Source of the DNA: a virus
Virus record (IMG/VR): IMGVR_UViG_3300035662_000142
Span: 1-26,856 of that record
Strand: one strand, 5' to 3'
Length of the DNA: 26,856 nucleotides
Shown here: positions 2,884 to 14,094 of the stretch, piece after piece
How the letters are laid out: every line of letters begins with the position of its first letter
Position numbering within the stretch: the stretch's first letter is position 1
Position numbers and translations under genes: made by a program
The notes under the pieces: generated by a model
What the model saw: only the letters and a program-made list of their open reading frames with translations
Database searches by the model: none
What the model was told of the DNA's origin: nothing

Positions 2884-3069
2884 ATGACGACCATCTGCAC
2901 CATCCTGGCCCTGCTGCTGTTTCCTGTCCTGTTCCTGCTGTGGCTGACGGAATCCCGCCAGCAACGCGCCCGCCGCTGGCGCCGCGATGGGCTCACCTAT
3001 CGGGTGATCGCTGAGCGGCTGGGCTGCTCACAGACCACCGCTCGCCGGCTGGTGGGGGTGGCGGCATGA
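2884..3069 (+). CDS. Small membrane-anchored helix-turn-helix protein
   Basis: A 61-residue protein with two clear parts. Residues 4-21 form a strongly hydrophobic segment (CTILALLLFPVLFLLWL), long enough to span the membrane once. A basic linker RQQRARRWRRDG comes next, then residues 37-57 match a helix-turn-helix (LTYRVIAERLGCSQTTARRL) of the resolvase/Hin-like type. A DNA-binding motif tethered directly to a membrane helix in so short a protein is unusual. Basic residues after the helix predict a cytoplasmic C-terminus. It has its own 41-base upstream gap, with a possible promoter, in an otherwise overlapping operon. Its stop overlaps the next start. Confidence 0.7.
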   Translation: MTTICTILALLLFPVLFLLWLTESRQQRARRWRRDGLTYRVIAERLGCSQTTARRLVGVAA

Positions 3070-9640: not shown

Positions 9641-9705
9641 AGAGTGACCCGCCTGTTTGGGCATCGCTGAGAGGCCTGGCGGGTGTTGCTGGGGTCAGCC
9701 TACAG

Positions 9706-9997: not shown

Positions 9998-10222
9998 TCA
10001 GCTGAGGGCGTAAACCTGGCGAAACAGGCTCAGTGTTTGATCGTCACGGCCGCAACGGCGCCATAGCTCATGAACCAGATCAGCGTCGGCATTGTTTCCC
10101 AGGCCACGCAATGCGTTGATTGCGTGTTGAATGCACAGATTTGCTTTTTGGATTTTGTCGTAGTAGCGATCGTTTGTGATTTGGCTTGGAACAACGAGAA
10201 AAGAGAAGCTGGGAGCGGTCAT
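9998..10222 (-). CDS. Hypothetical helical protein
   Basis: 74 residues from the ATG at 10222 (MTAPSFSFLVVPSQITNDRY). The frame is open further upstream, but this ATG follows the duplicated leader and promoter and matches the start context of the paralogous arrangement at 10969. Helical segments include KANLCIQHAINALRGLG and DLVHELWRRCGRDDQTLSLF. No family is recognised. Confidence 0.65.
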   Translation of the reverse strand: MTAPSFSFLVVPSQITNDRYYDKIQKANLCIQHAINALRGLGNNADADLVHELWRRCGRDDQTLSLFRQVYALS

Positions 10223-10243
10223 GGCTGGCGAGTGGCGGTGGAG
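10220..10243. repeat. 24-bp leader repeat, copy 1 (second copy at 10967-10990)
   Basis: Twenty-four bases covering the start codon and the C-rich, Shine-Dalgarno-free leader of the 10222 gene are identical to those of the 10969 gene. They form part of the larger duplicated gene-promoter-leader arrangement described at 10265 and 11077. Confidence 0.85.
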
Positions 10244-10264
10244 GTGTTCCCCTCCGATGCCCAT

Positions 10265-10295
10265 ACTGTAACCCGTGGGGCACACCCTGGCAACC
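10265..10295 (-). promoter_or_regulatory. Sigma-70 promoter, copy 1 of an exact 31-bp repeat
   Basis: On the minus strand TTGCCA (10293-10288, -35) and TACAGT (10270-10265, -10) are separated by exactly 17 bases. The predicted start of transcription is about 36 bases before the ATG at 10222. The spacer contains GGCACAC (10279-10285). These 31 bases are identical to 11077-11107, and the identity ends at the edge of the -10 and just beyond the -35. In this copy the -35 also lies in a perfect hairpin, CCCTGGC-AACC-GCCAGGG. Confidence 0.6.
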
Positions 10296-10310: not shown

Positions 10311-10550
10311 TTACAGATCGTCACGTTTCCGCTGCCTCGCCACCCTTTCCCGGTTCCACTCCCTGGCGGCTGGCGATCGTTTCCAGCACCGGGAGCACAG
10401 GGGCGCGGTGCGGGTGCTGATCACGGTGCGGCCGCACTGGGGGCAGGTGGGGAGGGCCGTCACGCCCGCCCACTCGGCCGCAGGGGAAAACTCCTGCAGG
10501 GCTTGGCGGAGGCGATGGCGGGCGGTCTTCTCGGCGGGGGTTAGGGGCAT
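10311..10550 (-). CDS. Zinc-ribbon protein, paralogue A
   Basis: A 79-residue protein from the ATG at 10550, which overlaps the upstream stop by one base (TGATG). It has an N-terminal helix LTPAEKTARHRLRQALQEF. A zinc ribbon follows, with CPQC at 36-39 and CSRC at 52-55. The end is basic (WKRSPAAREWNRERVARQ). The second half closely parallels the 11344 protein (LCSRCWKRS, then REWNRERVAR versus REVNRQRMAR). It is probably a nucleic-acid-binding protein. The gene is followed at once by a promoter for the next gene. Confidence 0.7.
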   Translation of the reverse strand: MPLTPAEKTARHRLRQALQEFSPAAEWAGVTALPTCPQCGRTVISTRTAPLCSRCWKRSPAAREWNRERVARQRKRDDL

Positions 10551-10969
10551 CAATCGCGGCCTTCGATCGCATCGGCCAGCGCCAGGAACTGGGCGCGGTG
10601 GCGGGCTGTGGTGGGGCGGGTGGCGTCACGGGCCGGATCACCCAGCATCACCTCTACGGCGGCGCGGATGGCGAGGGCATGCGATGGCAGGATCAGGCCA
10701 TAGCCGGCACGCTCCATCGCATCAGCAAACGCTGCGCGGAGCTCGGCAGAGCGCAGCCGCATGGCCGCTGCACGTGCCGCTGCTTGGAGCTTTACGCTTT
10801 GAGGATGAGAGTCGTAGGCAGGGTCGGGCAGGTTGGCTTTGAACTCAGCGATGATCGCAACACGCTCGGCCTGGGTTGTAGCGCTGGCGAGCCGTTGGCC
10901 GAAGGCGTTGATCTGCTCTTGGTTCCAATCGTTGGCGAAATGGGCGGTTTGTTCGTAGGTGAGAGTCAT
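10550..10969 (-). CDS. Hypothetical helical protein
   Basis: A 139-residue, almost entirely alpha-helical protein starting MTLTYEQTAHFANDWNQEQI. It contains ATTQAERVAIIAEFKANL, AAARAAAMRLRSAELRAAF and ends FLALADAIEGRD. No catalytic motif and no recognised family. The ATG lies in the 24-bp leader repeat shared with the 10222 gene, downstream of promoter copy 2. Confidence 0.65.
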   Translation of the reverse strand: MTLTYEQTAHFANDWNQEQINAFGQRLASATTQAERVAIIAEFKANLPDPAYDSHPQSVKLQAAARAAAMRLRSAELRAAFADAMERAGYGLILPSHALAIRAAVEVMLGDPARDATRPTTARHRAQFLALADAIEGRD

Positions 10970-10990
10970 GGCTGGCGAGTGGCGGTGGAG
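10967..10990. repeat. 24-bp leader repeat, copy 2
   Basis: Identical to 10220-10243. It includes the start codon of the 10969 gene and its CACCGCCACTCGCCAGCC leader. In this copy the distance between leader and promoter is about 70 bases longer than in copy 1. Confidence 0.85.
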
Positions 10991-11076
10991 TGGGTGCGGG
11001 GAATGCCGACGATCTGGCAGGCTCCCCGTGGGCCAGGGGCCGGAGCCCCGGAAGAGGTTTCCCTCCCGATGCCATC

Positions 11077-11107
11077 ACTGTAACCCGTGGGGCACACCCT
11101 GGCAACC
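11077..11107 (-). promoter_or_regulatory. Sigma-70 promoter, copy 2 of an exact 31-bp repeat
   Basis: The same TTGCCA (11105-11100), 17-base spacer and TACAGT (11082-11077) as the first copy, with GGCACAC at 11091-11097 in the spacer. The predicted transcript would have a leader of about 100 bases before the ATG at 10969. The block lies just after the end of the zinc-ribbon gene at 11123, as copy 1 does after the gene ending at 10311. Confidence 0.6.
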
Positions 11108-11122
11108 CATCACCGGGTCAGT

Positions 11123-11344
11123 TCACAATCCGTCACGCCTCGCGGCCCTCAGCCTCGCCATCCGCTGCCGGTTCACTTCCCGCCCAGCAGTCGATCGTTT
11201 CCAGCACCGGGAACACAGCACCCCCGTCCGCCGCGACCTCACCAGCCGGGAGCACACAGTGCACGGCTGAGGGGCGTCGGGATCGGGCAGGCCCCGTAGG
11301 CGGCGACGCCACCGTACCGTCCGGGCGGTGCTGGAGTCAGCCAC
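11123..11344 (-). CDS. Zinc-ribbon protein, paralogue B
   Basis: 73 residues from a GTG that overlaps the end of the upstream gene by 8 bases; an in-frame ATG 27 bases further upstream (11371) is the alternative. It has an Arg-rich N-terminus (RWRRRLRG) and a zinc ribbon with CTVC at 28-31 and CSRC at 44-47. The basic end has REVNRQRMARLRAARR. It is clearly related to the 10550 protein over the ribbon and tail, but its N-terminal part is different. It probably binds nucleic acid. Confidence 0.65.
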   Translation of the reverse strand: MADSSTARTVRWRRRLRGLPDPDAPQPCTVCSRLVRSRRTGVLCSRCWKRSTAGREVNRQRMARLRAARRDGL

Positions 11345-11501
11345 GGCACTCCTGCAGCAGGGCGCGGGCACCGCGCAGCAGCTGGAGCGCCTGCGTCAGC
11401 CGCTGGTCGTACTGCTCTGGTATCAGGCCCAGGGTGGCGAGATCGACGTAGATCCCGGTCAGTTGATCCCGGATCAGATCGTGCATGTCGTAGTCGGTCA
11501 T
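11337..11501 (-). CDS. Hypothetical small helical protein
   Basis: A 54-residue ORF starting MTDYDMHDLIRDQLTGIYVD, followed by LATLGLIPEQYDQRLTQALQ. Two or three amphipathic helices are likely. The ATG has a purine-free leader of repeated CCACC units ending CACGCC-ATG. Its stop overlaps the GTG of the next gene. No family is recognised. Confidence 0.6.
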   Translation of the reverse strand: MTDYDMHDLIRDQLTGIYVDLATLGLIPEQYDQRLTQALQLLRGARALLQECRG

Positions 11502-11530: not shown

Positions 11531-11785
11531 TCAGTCCGCCTCGATGGCGTCCAGCTGGGCGGCCAGGGCGGCCTGCTGGCGCTCCACCAAGGCCGTCAGC
11601 CGGGCGGCGTGCCGGGCCGTGCGCTGGAGCCGGCGCAGGGCCGCTCCCGTGTCAGCCGTGGACCGTGGCGCCCACCCATCCAGCAGGGCGTCCACCCGGG
11701 CGTCGGTGGCGTCGGCCTGCTGGAGCAGGGCGTCCACCTCAGCCATCAGGGCGTCGGTGTCAGTGGCGGGGGTGGTGTGTTCCAT
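11531..11785 (-). CDS. Hypothetical coiled-coil protein
   Basis: 84 residues from the ATG at 11785 (MEHTTPATDTDALMAEVDAL). The rest is a nearly continuous helix with heptad-like Leu/Ala spacing (LLQQADATDARVDALLDGW, then RLTALVERQQAALAAQLD). The longer open frame upstream is low-complexity Pro/Arg-rich sequence and is rejected. The ATG follows a GCGCCACGCC leader with no Shine-Dalgarno sequence. Confidence 0.6.
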   Translation of the reverse strand: MEHTTPATDTDALMAEVDALLQQADATDARVDALLDGWAPRSTADTGAALRRLQRTARHAARLTALVERQQAALAAQLDAIEAD

Positions 11786-11822: not shown

Positions 11823-12017
11823 TCACCCCAGTGGCGGGGTGACCGTGTAGCCCGCTGCCTCCAGCAGGGCGATGGCGGCGGCGATGTCGTCCGCCGGCAG
11901 TGCCGGCCTGATGGCCGGTGTGTCGGCCAGCTCGGTGGCCAGCCCCCGGTAGAGCCGGGCATCGCTCTCGGCCAGATCCCGGAGGGTGGCGCGGAGCGTG
12001 TCGGTGATGACGCCCAT
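11823..12017 (-). CDS. Hypothetical helical protein, first gene of the leftward small-gene operon
   Basis: 64 residues from the ATG at 12017 (MGVITDTLRATLRDLAESD), with a C-terminal segment DDIAAAIALLEAAGYTVTPP. Upstream in-frame codons belong to the CACCACC-rich leader. It is the first gene after the large non-coding control region and is probably transcribed from it. No family is recognised. Confidence 0.6.
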   Translation of the reverse strand: MGVITDTLRATLRDLAESDARLYRGLATELADTPAIRPALPADDIAAAIALLEAAGYTVTPPLG

Positions 12018-12044
12018 GAGTGGTGGTGCGGTGGTGCCCCTCAA

Positions 12045-12220
12045 GTGTGCGCCACATCGTCACCGCGTAGCACACGTGGTCAGGTGGTGCAGCCGTATCA
12101 AATTCAGCCAAACCCGTTGCGCTGCAGTCGATCTAGCCAGCGTGTGCCGGTGACGTAGTGGCACACATAAGAGCGAACTGGCACACGCCACGCACACAGA
12201 TCTGAGGCGAACTGGCACAC
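12045..12220. repeat. Clustered GGCACAC/GTGTGCC operator-like array
   Basis: Seven copies of the hexamer GCACAC or its complement lie at 12045, 12070, 12143, 12161, 12181, 12192 and 12215. Two of them sit in an exact 14-bp direct repeat GCGAACTGGCACAC (12173-12186 and 12207-12220), with starts 34 bases apart. Two others form an inverted pair GTGTGCC-N11-GGCACAC (12142-12166). Such spacing is typical of repressor or activator binding sites. The same GGCACAC occurs inside both promoter copies at 10279 and 11091. Confidence 0.55.
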
Positions 12221-12241
12221 GGTCGGGCTGATTTGGTATCA

Positions 12242-12323
12242 GCTCAGCACAAAACTGAGCCGCAGTGAACAGCCGTACTACCGCTGAAATACATTGCAGC
12301 AGCAGCGATTGGGAGAAATGTAT
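12242..12323. repeat. Two inverted repeats in the control region
   Basis: GCTCAG (12242-12247) pairs with CTGAGC (12255-12260) across seven bases. ATACATT (12289-12295) pairs with AATGTAT (12317-12323) across 21 bases. Either could be a protein-binding dyad or an RNA hairpin. Neither is followed by a T-run. Confidence 0.45.
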
Positions 12324-12331
12324 CGGCGTGT

Positions 12332-12359
12332 ACCTGCGGAAAACTCAGTTTCCGCAGGT
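12332..12359. repeat. Perfect 11-bp inverted repeat, likely operator or structured RNA
   Basis: ACCTGCGGAAA (12332-12342) and TTTCCGCAGGT (12349-12359) are perfectly complementary across the six bases ACTCAG. The inner AAACT/AGTTT also pairs about a shifted centre. There is no T-run on either side, so it is not a standard terminator. A dimeric repressor site, a recombination core or a stable RNA hairpin are all possible. Confidence 0.6.
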
Positions 12360-12472
12360 GTCACACTGCTGCACGTTACATCCCGTCACAAACAAGAGTG
12401 AGCGGATGCACTACCAGATCAGATCCCCTGCAGCGCAGGCGGTTTCATTGATAAGCAGTGCAGGCGTACTGC

Positions 12473-12742
12473 TCACCGCCCCAGCCCCATGTCCCGCGCC
12501 CACCGGTGATGCTCACCCGTCGGCTCGCCCAGTGGCGGCGCCCCCTTCAGTGCCAGCTCCACCTGCAGGTTGGCCGCCTTGCGCTGCAGCTCAATGATCA
12601 GGTGCTGCTGCTGGTACCAGGCCTGGATCAGCTCATCGCAGCGCTCCGCCAGCTGGTCCCGGCTCATGTGCGCGGCGGCGCGGCGGTCGCGCTCCATCTC
12701 GAAGGAGCTCGACAGGCTGAGGGTGAGATTCAGGCCGAGCAT
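12473..12742 (-). CDS. Hypothetical coiled-coil protein
   Basis: An 89-residue protein starting MLGLNLTLSLSSSFEMERDR. A helical middle follows (DQLAERCDELIQAWYQQQ, then IIELQRKAANLQVELALKG), with a Pro/Gly-rich end. It may be a small structural or regulatory phage protein. Its ATG overlaps, on the opposite strand, the ATG of the 12741 gene (shared CATG). It is the last minus-strand gene before the non-coding region. Confidence 0.6.
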   Translation of the reverse strand: MLGLNLTLSLSSSFEMERDRRAAAHMSRDQLAERCDELIQAWYQQQHLIIELQRKAANLQVELALKGAPPLGEPTGEHHRWARDMGLGR

Positions 12743-12942: not shown

Positions 12943-14094
12943 TCACTCAGTGAAGATTGGGAACGATCCGGCAAAGCCCTTGTGGCTGTGCAAGAATCGC
13001 ATCCCCTGCTGAGGCCGCTCGATTCGGTAGCCGCTTTGCAGGCCGTAGGGTGCGCATCCTGGCAGGCTGCCGTTGCTGGTGGCCCTGGACCCGAATCCCA
13101 GCGTGTGGAAATGGCCGTGGAAGGTGTGATCAGCCGGCACCGACTGGTCCAGGTTCTTGGCGTGCTTATCAACGTTCCACAATGGCCCCGCCGCCCCGCC
13201 GTTGTAGCGAACCGAATCGCCATGGAAGAATCGCAACCGCTTGCCGTACACGTCCAGATAGAGGCAGTCAGCATCAGCGATGAACCATTCCAGCCGCGGC
13301 TCATCCCGGTAGTGCCGGCGCATTGAGCAGTACGCCAGATGCTCGTAGCTGTTCTCGGTGGCGTTGCTCTGCTGCTTCTTGGTGTTCCGGCCGTGGTTGC
13401 CCACGTTGCAGGGGATCAGGATCCTCTCCAGGTCGGAATGCTGCAACAGGTAGTCCAGCCCCCGCACGATCGCCCGTTCACACCTGACGATCTGCTGCGT
13501 TGTGGTCAGCGTCTGATTCTGCACCGCGTCGCCGTGCAGCTCTCCTTCAATCAGATCACCACCCAACCACACCACCGCCTCGCGCACCACTGCTGTGCTC
13601 CGCTGCCCGGCGATCACCTTCAGCGCATTGCGGAACACAGCATCTAGCCGGTCGTCGAAAATCTCTGGGTTGAACTCATTCAGCCCGTTGACGGATGACG
13701 GTTTGACGATCTGCCCGCAGTGCAGATCAGACAGCAGCAGGATTGGCACCGCCTCATCTTTCTGCGGATCCTCTGGCGGGGTGATGACGCCCTGATCAAA
13801 AATGTCCTTGATCTCAAGCGCCAAGGTCAGCGCATCCTGCACCGCCTCCAATTTGGCCAGGGCGCGCTCTGCGCTGGCCTTGGCATCCCGCGTCTCTGCC
13901 CGCAGCCGGCGGGCCTCCAGCTGCAGCTCCAGCAGCTCCTCTGCCGTGTCGCTGCGCTTGCCGTTTGGGCAGCACCCCGGCTTGCATAAAGGGCGCCGCT
14001 GGCCTGACTGTTCAACCCACTCAACGGACGATTCAGGAATCCAAGCCCTGCAAACCTTTGACCGGCGACACTGATATGGGCGTTCGGTCGTCAT
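12943..14094 (-). CDS. Calcineurin-like metallophosphoesterase with N-terminal Cys motif
   Basis: 383 residues. The N-terminal 50 hold a Cys-rich, possibly zinc-binding segment (C9, C15, C37, C41, C42). Residues 50-100 form a coiled coil (LELQLEARRLRAETRDAKA). The phosphoesterase domain has the five standard motifs: SDLHCG (D123, H125), GGDLIEG (178-184), GNHGR (232-236), FFHGD (289-293) and GHFH (327-330). These ligate two metal ions for phosphodiester or phosphomonoester cleavage. Phage relatives are often viewed as nucleases of the SbcD/Mre11 superfamily, but no substrate can be assigned. It lies 15 bases after the HNH gene. Confidence 0.9.
   Translation of the reverse strand: MTTERPYQCRRSKVCRAWIPESSVEWVEQSGQRRPLCKPGCCPNGKRSDTAEELLELQLEARRLRAETRDAKASAERALAKLEAVQDALTLALEIKDIFDQGVITPPEDPQKDEAVPILLLSDLHCGQIVKPSSVNGLNEFNPEIFDDRLDAVFRNALKVIAGQRSTAVVREAVVWLGGDLIEGELHGDAVQNQTLTTTQQIVRCERAIVRGLDYLLQHSDLERILIPCNVGNHGRNTKKQQSNATENSYEHLAYCSMRRHYRDEPRLEWFIADADCLYLDVYGKRLRFFHGDSVRYNGGAAGPLWNVDKHAKNLDQSVPADHTFHGHFHTLGFGSRATSNGSLPGCAPYGLQSGYRIERPQQGMRFLHSHKGFAGSFPIFTE

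Follow-up and report, generated by a model that had tools for sequence, protein, structure and literature searches.

Does the cluster of GCACAC/GTGTGC hexamers 5' of a leftward operon in this phage mark the sites of one regulator that also acts at distant promoters, as the original prediction held, or does it belong to an element confined to its own locus? The window analyzed here is the whole of a viral record of 26,856 bases, which may be a fragment, and it represents a cyanosiphovirus-like phage. Among annotated relatives, Synechococcus phage S-LBS1 is the nearest: a 7.2-kb query matches it at 73.6% identity over 14% of its length, sigma factor included. To our knowledge, almost nothing has been established about the control of transcription or lysogeny in cyanosiphoviruses. 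The S-LBS1 paper reports that no inducible prophage was found and discusses no repressor (PMC6157547).

The hexamer cluster and the heptamer at distant promoters

Seven hexamers lie within 176 bases, at 12045 (-), 12070 (+), 12142 (-), 12161, 12181, 12192 and 12215 (+), all where they had been placed before. Across the window neither the hexamer (27 occurrences against 29.5 expected) nor the heptamer GGCACAC (11 against 9.0) is over-represented, but the largest number of hexamers in a comparable stretch of 1200 Markov-simulated genomes is four, and no hexamer is clustered more densely anywhere in the window. The local cluster is therefore real and is kept in relatives, whereas the long-range claim that the array is shared with distant promoters has no statistical support. 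The inverted pair with 11-base spacing is confirmed as GTGTGCC-N11-GGCACAC at 12142-12166; the exact direct repeat, earlier given as 14 bp, is found in its reported place with a length of 15 bp (GCGAACTGGCACACG, copies at 12173-12187 and 12207-12221). The seven hexamers are not all one thing, as that at 12045-12050 lies inside the -10-like core promoter element described below and that at 12070-12075 lies inside a poorly conserved spacer.

The heptamers at 10279 and 11091 do fall in the spacer between -35 and -10, within the two copies of a promoter designated P (TTGCCA-17-TACAGT; minus strand, 11077..11105 and 10265..10293), which is separate from the array. These copies belong to 49-bp duplicates that are 90% identical (10247-10295 and 11059-11107), and because the promoters are duplicated the two heptamers count as one event. 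The match near 2853 also exists (2853-2859), as a single isolated heptamer. Among 15 P copies from relatives, which were selected by exact GGGTTACAGT, the flanking CAC and GGGTTACAGT are kept throughout, while GTGTGCC is present in nine and replaced in six (GTGGTGCC, GGCGTGCC or GGTGTCC). P is unrelated to the array, and the heptamer is not a conserved part of it.

The asymmetric repeat in the array has the extended consensus TGTGCCASTT, and both matches to it in the window fall within the array. The array is one part of a larger module, described below, and in 12 module-bearing genomes (including one closed genome, which has a 127-bp terminal repeat) all 23 matches lie inside that module; 14 records lacking the module contain nine matches, four of them clustered in a single genome, G022. 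None of the three regulators proposed for the array tracks it: the zinc-ribbon/HTH protein (4841-4476) is encoded in two of seven genomes with the module and one of four without, the membrane-HTH protein (2884-3069) in two of seven and two of four, and the RHH-like protein (1187-1348) in one of seven and two of four. Operators of one phage regulator scattered over at least three transcription units, a model that draws on the heptamer in two further promoters and at 2853, are thus very improbable; the model was rejected by the genome-wide motif search, which confines the extended motif to one locus in module genomes, and by the comparison of promoter copies, six of 15 of which have replaced the spacer heptamer, and the proposed regulators fail to follow the array.

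An identical 26-bp sequence lies at two start codons in the window (10218-10243 and 10965-10990), with P located 5' of each. In relatives P recurs before different small genes, which recalls the start-associated sequences of cluster K mycobacteriophages, and in relatives of the window that lack the module an upstream 89-aa gene is joined, close after its end, to P.

Architecture and conservation of the module

The array forms part of a noncoding module of about 430 bp (about 12044-12470, minus strand) that constitutes the upstream region of a leftward small-gene cassette. An 18-nt core pattern matches 15 viral contigs, 14 of which carry the module; the remaining match, in L019, is an unrelated coding sequence and was discarded. 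A wider core pattern matches 28 viral contigs, the first cassette protein used as a query identifies 35 loci, and a wide scan for pairs of the repeat, in which many of the listed matches lie outside any module, served only to find variant modules. In all, 38 distinct copies with conserved spacing were obtained, each 5' of a small-gene cassette in metagenomic cyanophage contigs, all from the IMG/VR virus collection. Alignments of 29 and of 22 sequences each reveal one noncoding block of this length with a conserved start codon at its end; the nearest array-bearing relative, L014, aligns with 78.7% identity over 12004-12522. The operator-like character originally assigned to the array is borne out in that relatives keep it as a conserved DNA element resembling protein sites. 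A blastn search of 50,697 phage records and 72,556 plasmids gave no match to the module, which is therefore unseen in isolates. In the genome contigs scanned, one 20-nt match occurs in a Rhodobacterales contig from which the rest of the module is absent; it was taken as chance, and a host origin was set aside.

Several kinds of element can be distinguished. Nearest the cassette is a core promoter element (GTGACGATGTGGCGCACACT, 12044..12063, minus strand) with a -10-like CACACT, for which relatives have CACAAT, CACAGT or CACTAT in an element of the form GTGACG...CACAnT; no clear -35 element is seen at this promoter. The D repeats, all read on the minus strand, comprise D1 (GTGTGCCAGTT, 12210..12220), the degenerate D2 (GTGTGCG, 12191..12197) at 11 bp, in some copies 13, from D3, D3 itself (GTGTGCCAGTT, 12176..12186), which serves as the anchor for the spacings below, and the D4 block (TCTTATGTGTGCCACTACGTCACCGGCACAC, 12142..12172), which contains the inverted hexamer pair and part of which is the 18-nt search pattern. 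A 25-bp palindrome of the family AGAYC-N3-TGC-N3-GCA-N3-GRTCT is present three times, as A1 (12421..12445), A2 (12285..12311; degenerate in the window and placed by alignment) and A3 (12110..12134). Two dyads resembling LexA boxes, B1 (AGTACGCCTGCACT, 12457..12470) and B2 (AGTACGGCTGTTCA, 12266..12279), lie on the minus strand, and an inverted repeat C (ACCTGCGGAAA-N6-TTTCCGCAGGT) occupies 12332..12359, its arm reading TTTTCCGCA in the window and a DnaA-box-like TTWTCCACA in many relatives. The D4 block (88.6% mean pairwise identity) and the core promoter (88.1%) are the best conserved parts, compared with 68% overall and 54.6% for the spacer that holds the hexamer at 12070. Local GC content dips at the module to about 0.53.

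The order of the elements is fixed and their spacing nearly so, and the distance from the module to the -10-like element and the start codon is likewise fixed. Among the 38 distinct copies, D3 and A3 are separated by 59-61 bp without exception, and the other spacings take one of two values: 34 bp (30 copies) or 24-25 bp (6) between D1 and D3, 117 bp (15) or 107 bp (3) between A2 and D3, and 108-110 bp (30) or 96-98 bp (6) between A3 and the ATG. The alternative spacings differ by about one helical turn, as expected if proteins bind cooperatively along a single face of the DNA. The alternatives possibly reflect few ancestral events passed on by descent, and this agreement is therefore strong support and not statistical proof.

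Inverted repeats conserved in this way, some with compensatory changes, could also indicate that the module encodes a structured RNA, either a leader or a noncoding RNA. The C arms of the window and L014 differ by a compensated change of C/G for T/A, and the consensus fold pairs the D4 block with the core promoter over a long range. However, the opposite strand folds with z-scores of equal strength (-1.55 vs -1.72; -2.72 vs -3.02), the total covariation term is just -0.79 kcal/mol, and no Rfam match occurs at the module. On these grounds the RNA reading was rejected as highly unlikely, and the strand-symmetric folding indicates that the sites probably function in double-stranded form.

The B dyads were scored with a position weight matrix built from 48 published cyanobacterial LexA sites (PMC3091678). 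Over 12 phage records, the density of LexA-like sites within the module exceeds that of the remaining DNA by 70-130-fold, and the only two sites in the window that score at least 10 both lie in the module. Cyanobacterial LexA (SOS) boxes have the form RGTACNNNDGTWCB or AGTACWNWTGTACT (PMC3091678). In relatives the B dyads take the form GTAC-N4-GTAC and include GTACGCCTGTAC, the core of the recA box of Synechococcus WH8102, whereas the window copies are degenerate, scoring 12.4 (B2) and 11.6 (B1) where the 10th percentile of published sites is 14.2; LexA control is putative here.

Cassette genes and the placement of the module

The cassette consists of four small genes on the minus strand. The first encodes 64 aa from the ATG at 12017 (11823..12017; listed as a 73-aa open reading frame from a TTG), the second a predicted coiled-coil-like protein of 84 aa (11531..11785), the third a protein of 54 aa (11337..11501), and the fourth Zn82 (11123..11371), a zinc ribbon with basic flanking helices that is a candidate array-binding protein. 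Zn82 follows the module in every copy with enough downstream DNA and is found in seven of seven module genomes; among four genomes without the module, only one shows a 55% paralogue. Zn82 is also encoded in G021 (L046), a genome from which the module and D matches are both absent. The structure model of Zn82 (pLDDT 75) gave no significant match in a fold search (best E 1.5). First-gene homologues without the array are preceded either by the same core promoter, as in L046, or by other simple promoter-like sequences (L061, and also L057 and L060, read by eye).

The zinc-ribbon proteins encoded at 10311-10553 and 11123-11371 are paralogous and have arginine-rich helices, and small-gene cassettes of these phages commonly end with small proteins of this kind. 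AESDARLYRGL, the N-terminal motif of the first cassette protein, is likewise embedded in far larger phage proteins (L063-L067).

The genes adjoining the module vary from phage to phage and include gp157, VRR-NUC, lysozyme, HNH or integrase genes, and related phages either carry the entire module or lack it. Together with a small set of genes it appears to move between viruses of freshwater cyanobacteria. In L027 and L058 a P4-type integrase gene ends directly before it, and integrase-bearing module genomes mostly have the tyrosine type, as might be expected of an attP or recombination region in which the D repeats are arm-type sites. Yet at least two unrelated tyrosine integrases and one serine recombinase accompany the module, the gene of the 358-aa integrase class lies about 5-7 kb away from it, L031 has the same integrase followed by other DNA, and no tRNA gene lies near the module. 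An integrase is thus adjacent in some contigs only and the integrases are unrelated, for which reasons attP was rejected as a general explanation; we consider it scarcely probable.

Regarding integration genes more broadly, small numbers suggest that close relatives without the module tend to encode serine recombinases and carriers tyrosine integrases (G010, G016, G017 and G020 versus G001, G002, G004, G031 and others). The tyrosine integrases of carriers include a divergent class of 358-363 aa.

A more serious contender, although still an unlikely one, is that the module is an iteron-type origin or replication control site, with D as iterons, C as a pair of DnaA boxes, A as initiator or accessory sites, and the cassette promoter no more than a neighbour. 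Like iteron origins, the module has tandem, helically phased direct repeats (D1-D4); the DnaA-box-like arms in many relatives and the local drop in GC content may be further points of resemblance. In at least 20 other phage contigs, moreover, an A palindrome lies just 3' of the primase-polymerase gene or in the interval separating that gene from terS, and in G022 and L141 the D repeats and A palindromes share an AT-rich, iteron-rich, noncoding region that resembles an origin. Unlike iteron origins, the module is accessory: it is absent from many similar phages, including contigs of 43-62 kb that share replication genes. It also has no initiator gene beside it, none being found among the cassette genes, no GC-skew switch occurs consistently at the module between genomes, and the module invariably precedes a gene start by a set distance, tied to promoter and start codon. 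A role in replication nonetheless keeps some probability because the A palindromes adjoin primase-polymerase and terS genes and because D and A occur together in the AT-rich regions of G022 and L141. The latter regions have no start codon just downstream, which counts against a role in promoter control.

In these primase-polymerase and terS contexts the palindrome, of the form AGATC-N3-TGC-N3-GCA-N3-GATCT, often follows directly after a stop codon (e.g., L252:9683, L240:2973 and L229:2287). Two AT-rich noncoding regions, L054:967-1860 and L141 at ~13400-13870, contain two A palindromes and 2-4 D repeats and have the look of a replication origin; the former holds 12 ACTGATC/GATCAGT repeats, one further repeat being found elsewhere in that locus.

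A putative portable control region and its relation to known systems

The module is conserved, spatially rigid, portable and, in carrier genomes, confined to one locus. Its portability as a block, the presence of Zn82 downstream, and the core promoter or other promoter-like sequences before array-less homologues of the first gene point to an add-on region that controls the cassette promoter. The explanation we prefer, to which we would give about an even chance, is a putative one, namely that the module is a mobile control region of about 430 bp at which several proteins act on the cassette promoter. A sequence-specific protein would bind cooperatively to the D repeats from approximately the same side of the helix, and other proteins would bind beside this complex, possibly host LexA on B and an unknown dimer on A. 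The assembled complex would set the activity of the cassette promoter, which would probably be repressed or conditionally active, for example until DNA damage occurs. The most likely D-binding protein would be the cassette's own Zn82, in which case the unit would regulate itself. A more elaborate and quite doubtful possibility is a self-contained replicator-promoter that moves horizontally between freshwater cyanophages, in which the host SOS and replication factors LexA and DnaA together with a phage zinc-ribbon protein would be recruited to couple expression of the cassette, and perhaps local initiation of replication, to the state of the host.

As a mobile control region, the module resembles the cooperative operators of the lambda OR/OL type in that a portable unit bears multiple dyads and direct repeats, set at fixed intervals 5' of a promoter; it differs in that no CI/Cro-like gene is adjacent, at least two unrelated types of site are present, and the D repeats are asymmetric and direct. 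The start-associated sequences (SAS/ESAS) of cluster K mycobacteriophages (PMC3203893) likewise concern small-gene cassettes with recurring DNA at gene starts, here represented by promoter P together with the 26-bp repeat of 10218/10965, but SAS are short sequences dispersed among many genes, whereas the module is about 430 bp long and occupies a single locus; the 26-bp repeat would fit SAS better than the module does. The stoperators of L5-like mycobacteriophages (mentioned in PMC3203893) are, like the D repeats, short asymmetric phage sites in several copies, but they are scattered over the genome, while the D repeats belong to a single locus and do not place the same site at several transcription units in the manner of a stoperator-type regulon. 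The module shows that these phages exchange control regions, and not genes alone, as whole blocks, and it offers a delimited sequence with four or more types of conserved site, SOS-like boxes and a candidate binding protein.

Elsewhere in the window, an abiF RNA (RF03085, 50.9 bits) is located at 9647-9683 on the minus strand, and relatives carry it at L005:8787-8823, L006:8744-8780, L007:2903-2939, L015:10884-10920 and L017:8931-8967. No AbiF/Abi_2 protein (PF07751) was found in the window or in eight relatives, although the records may be incomplete. A lone antitoxin RNA of this type in a phage could be a decoy or antidote against an AbiF defence of the host.
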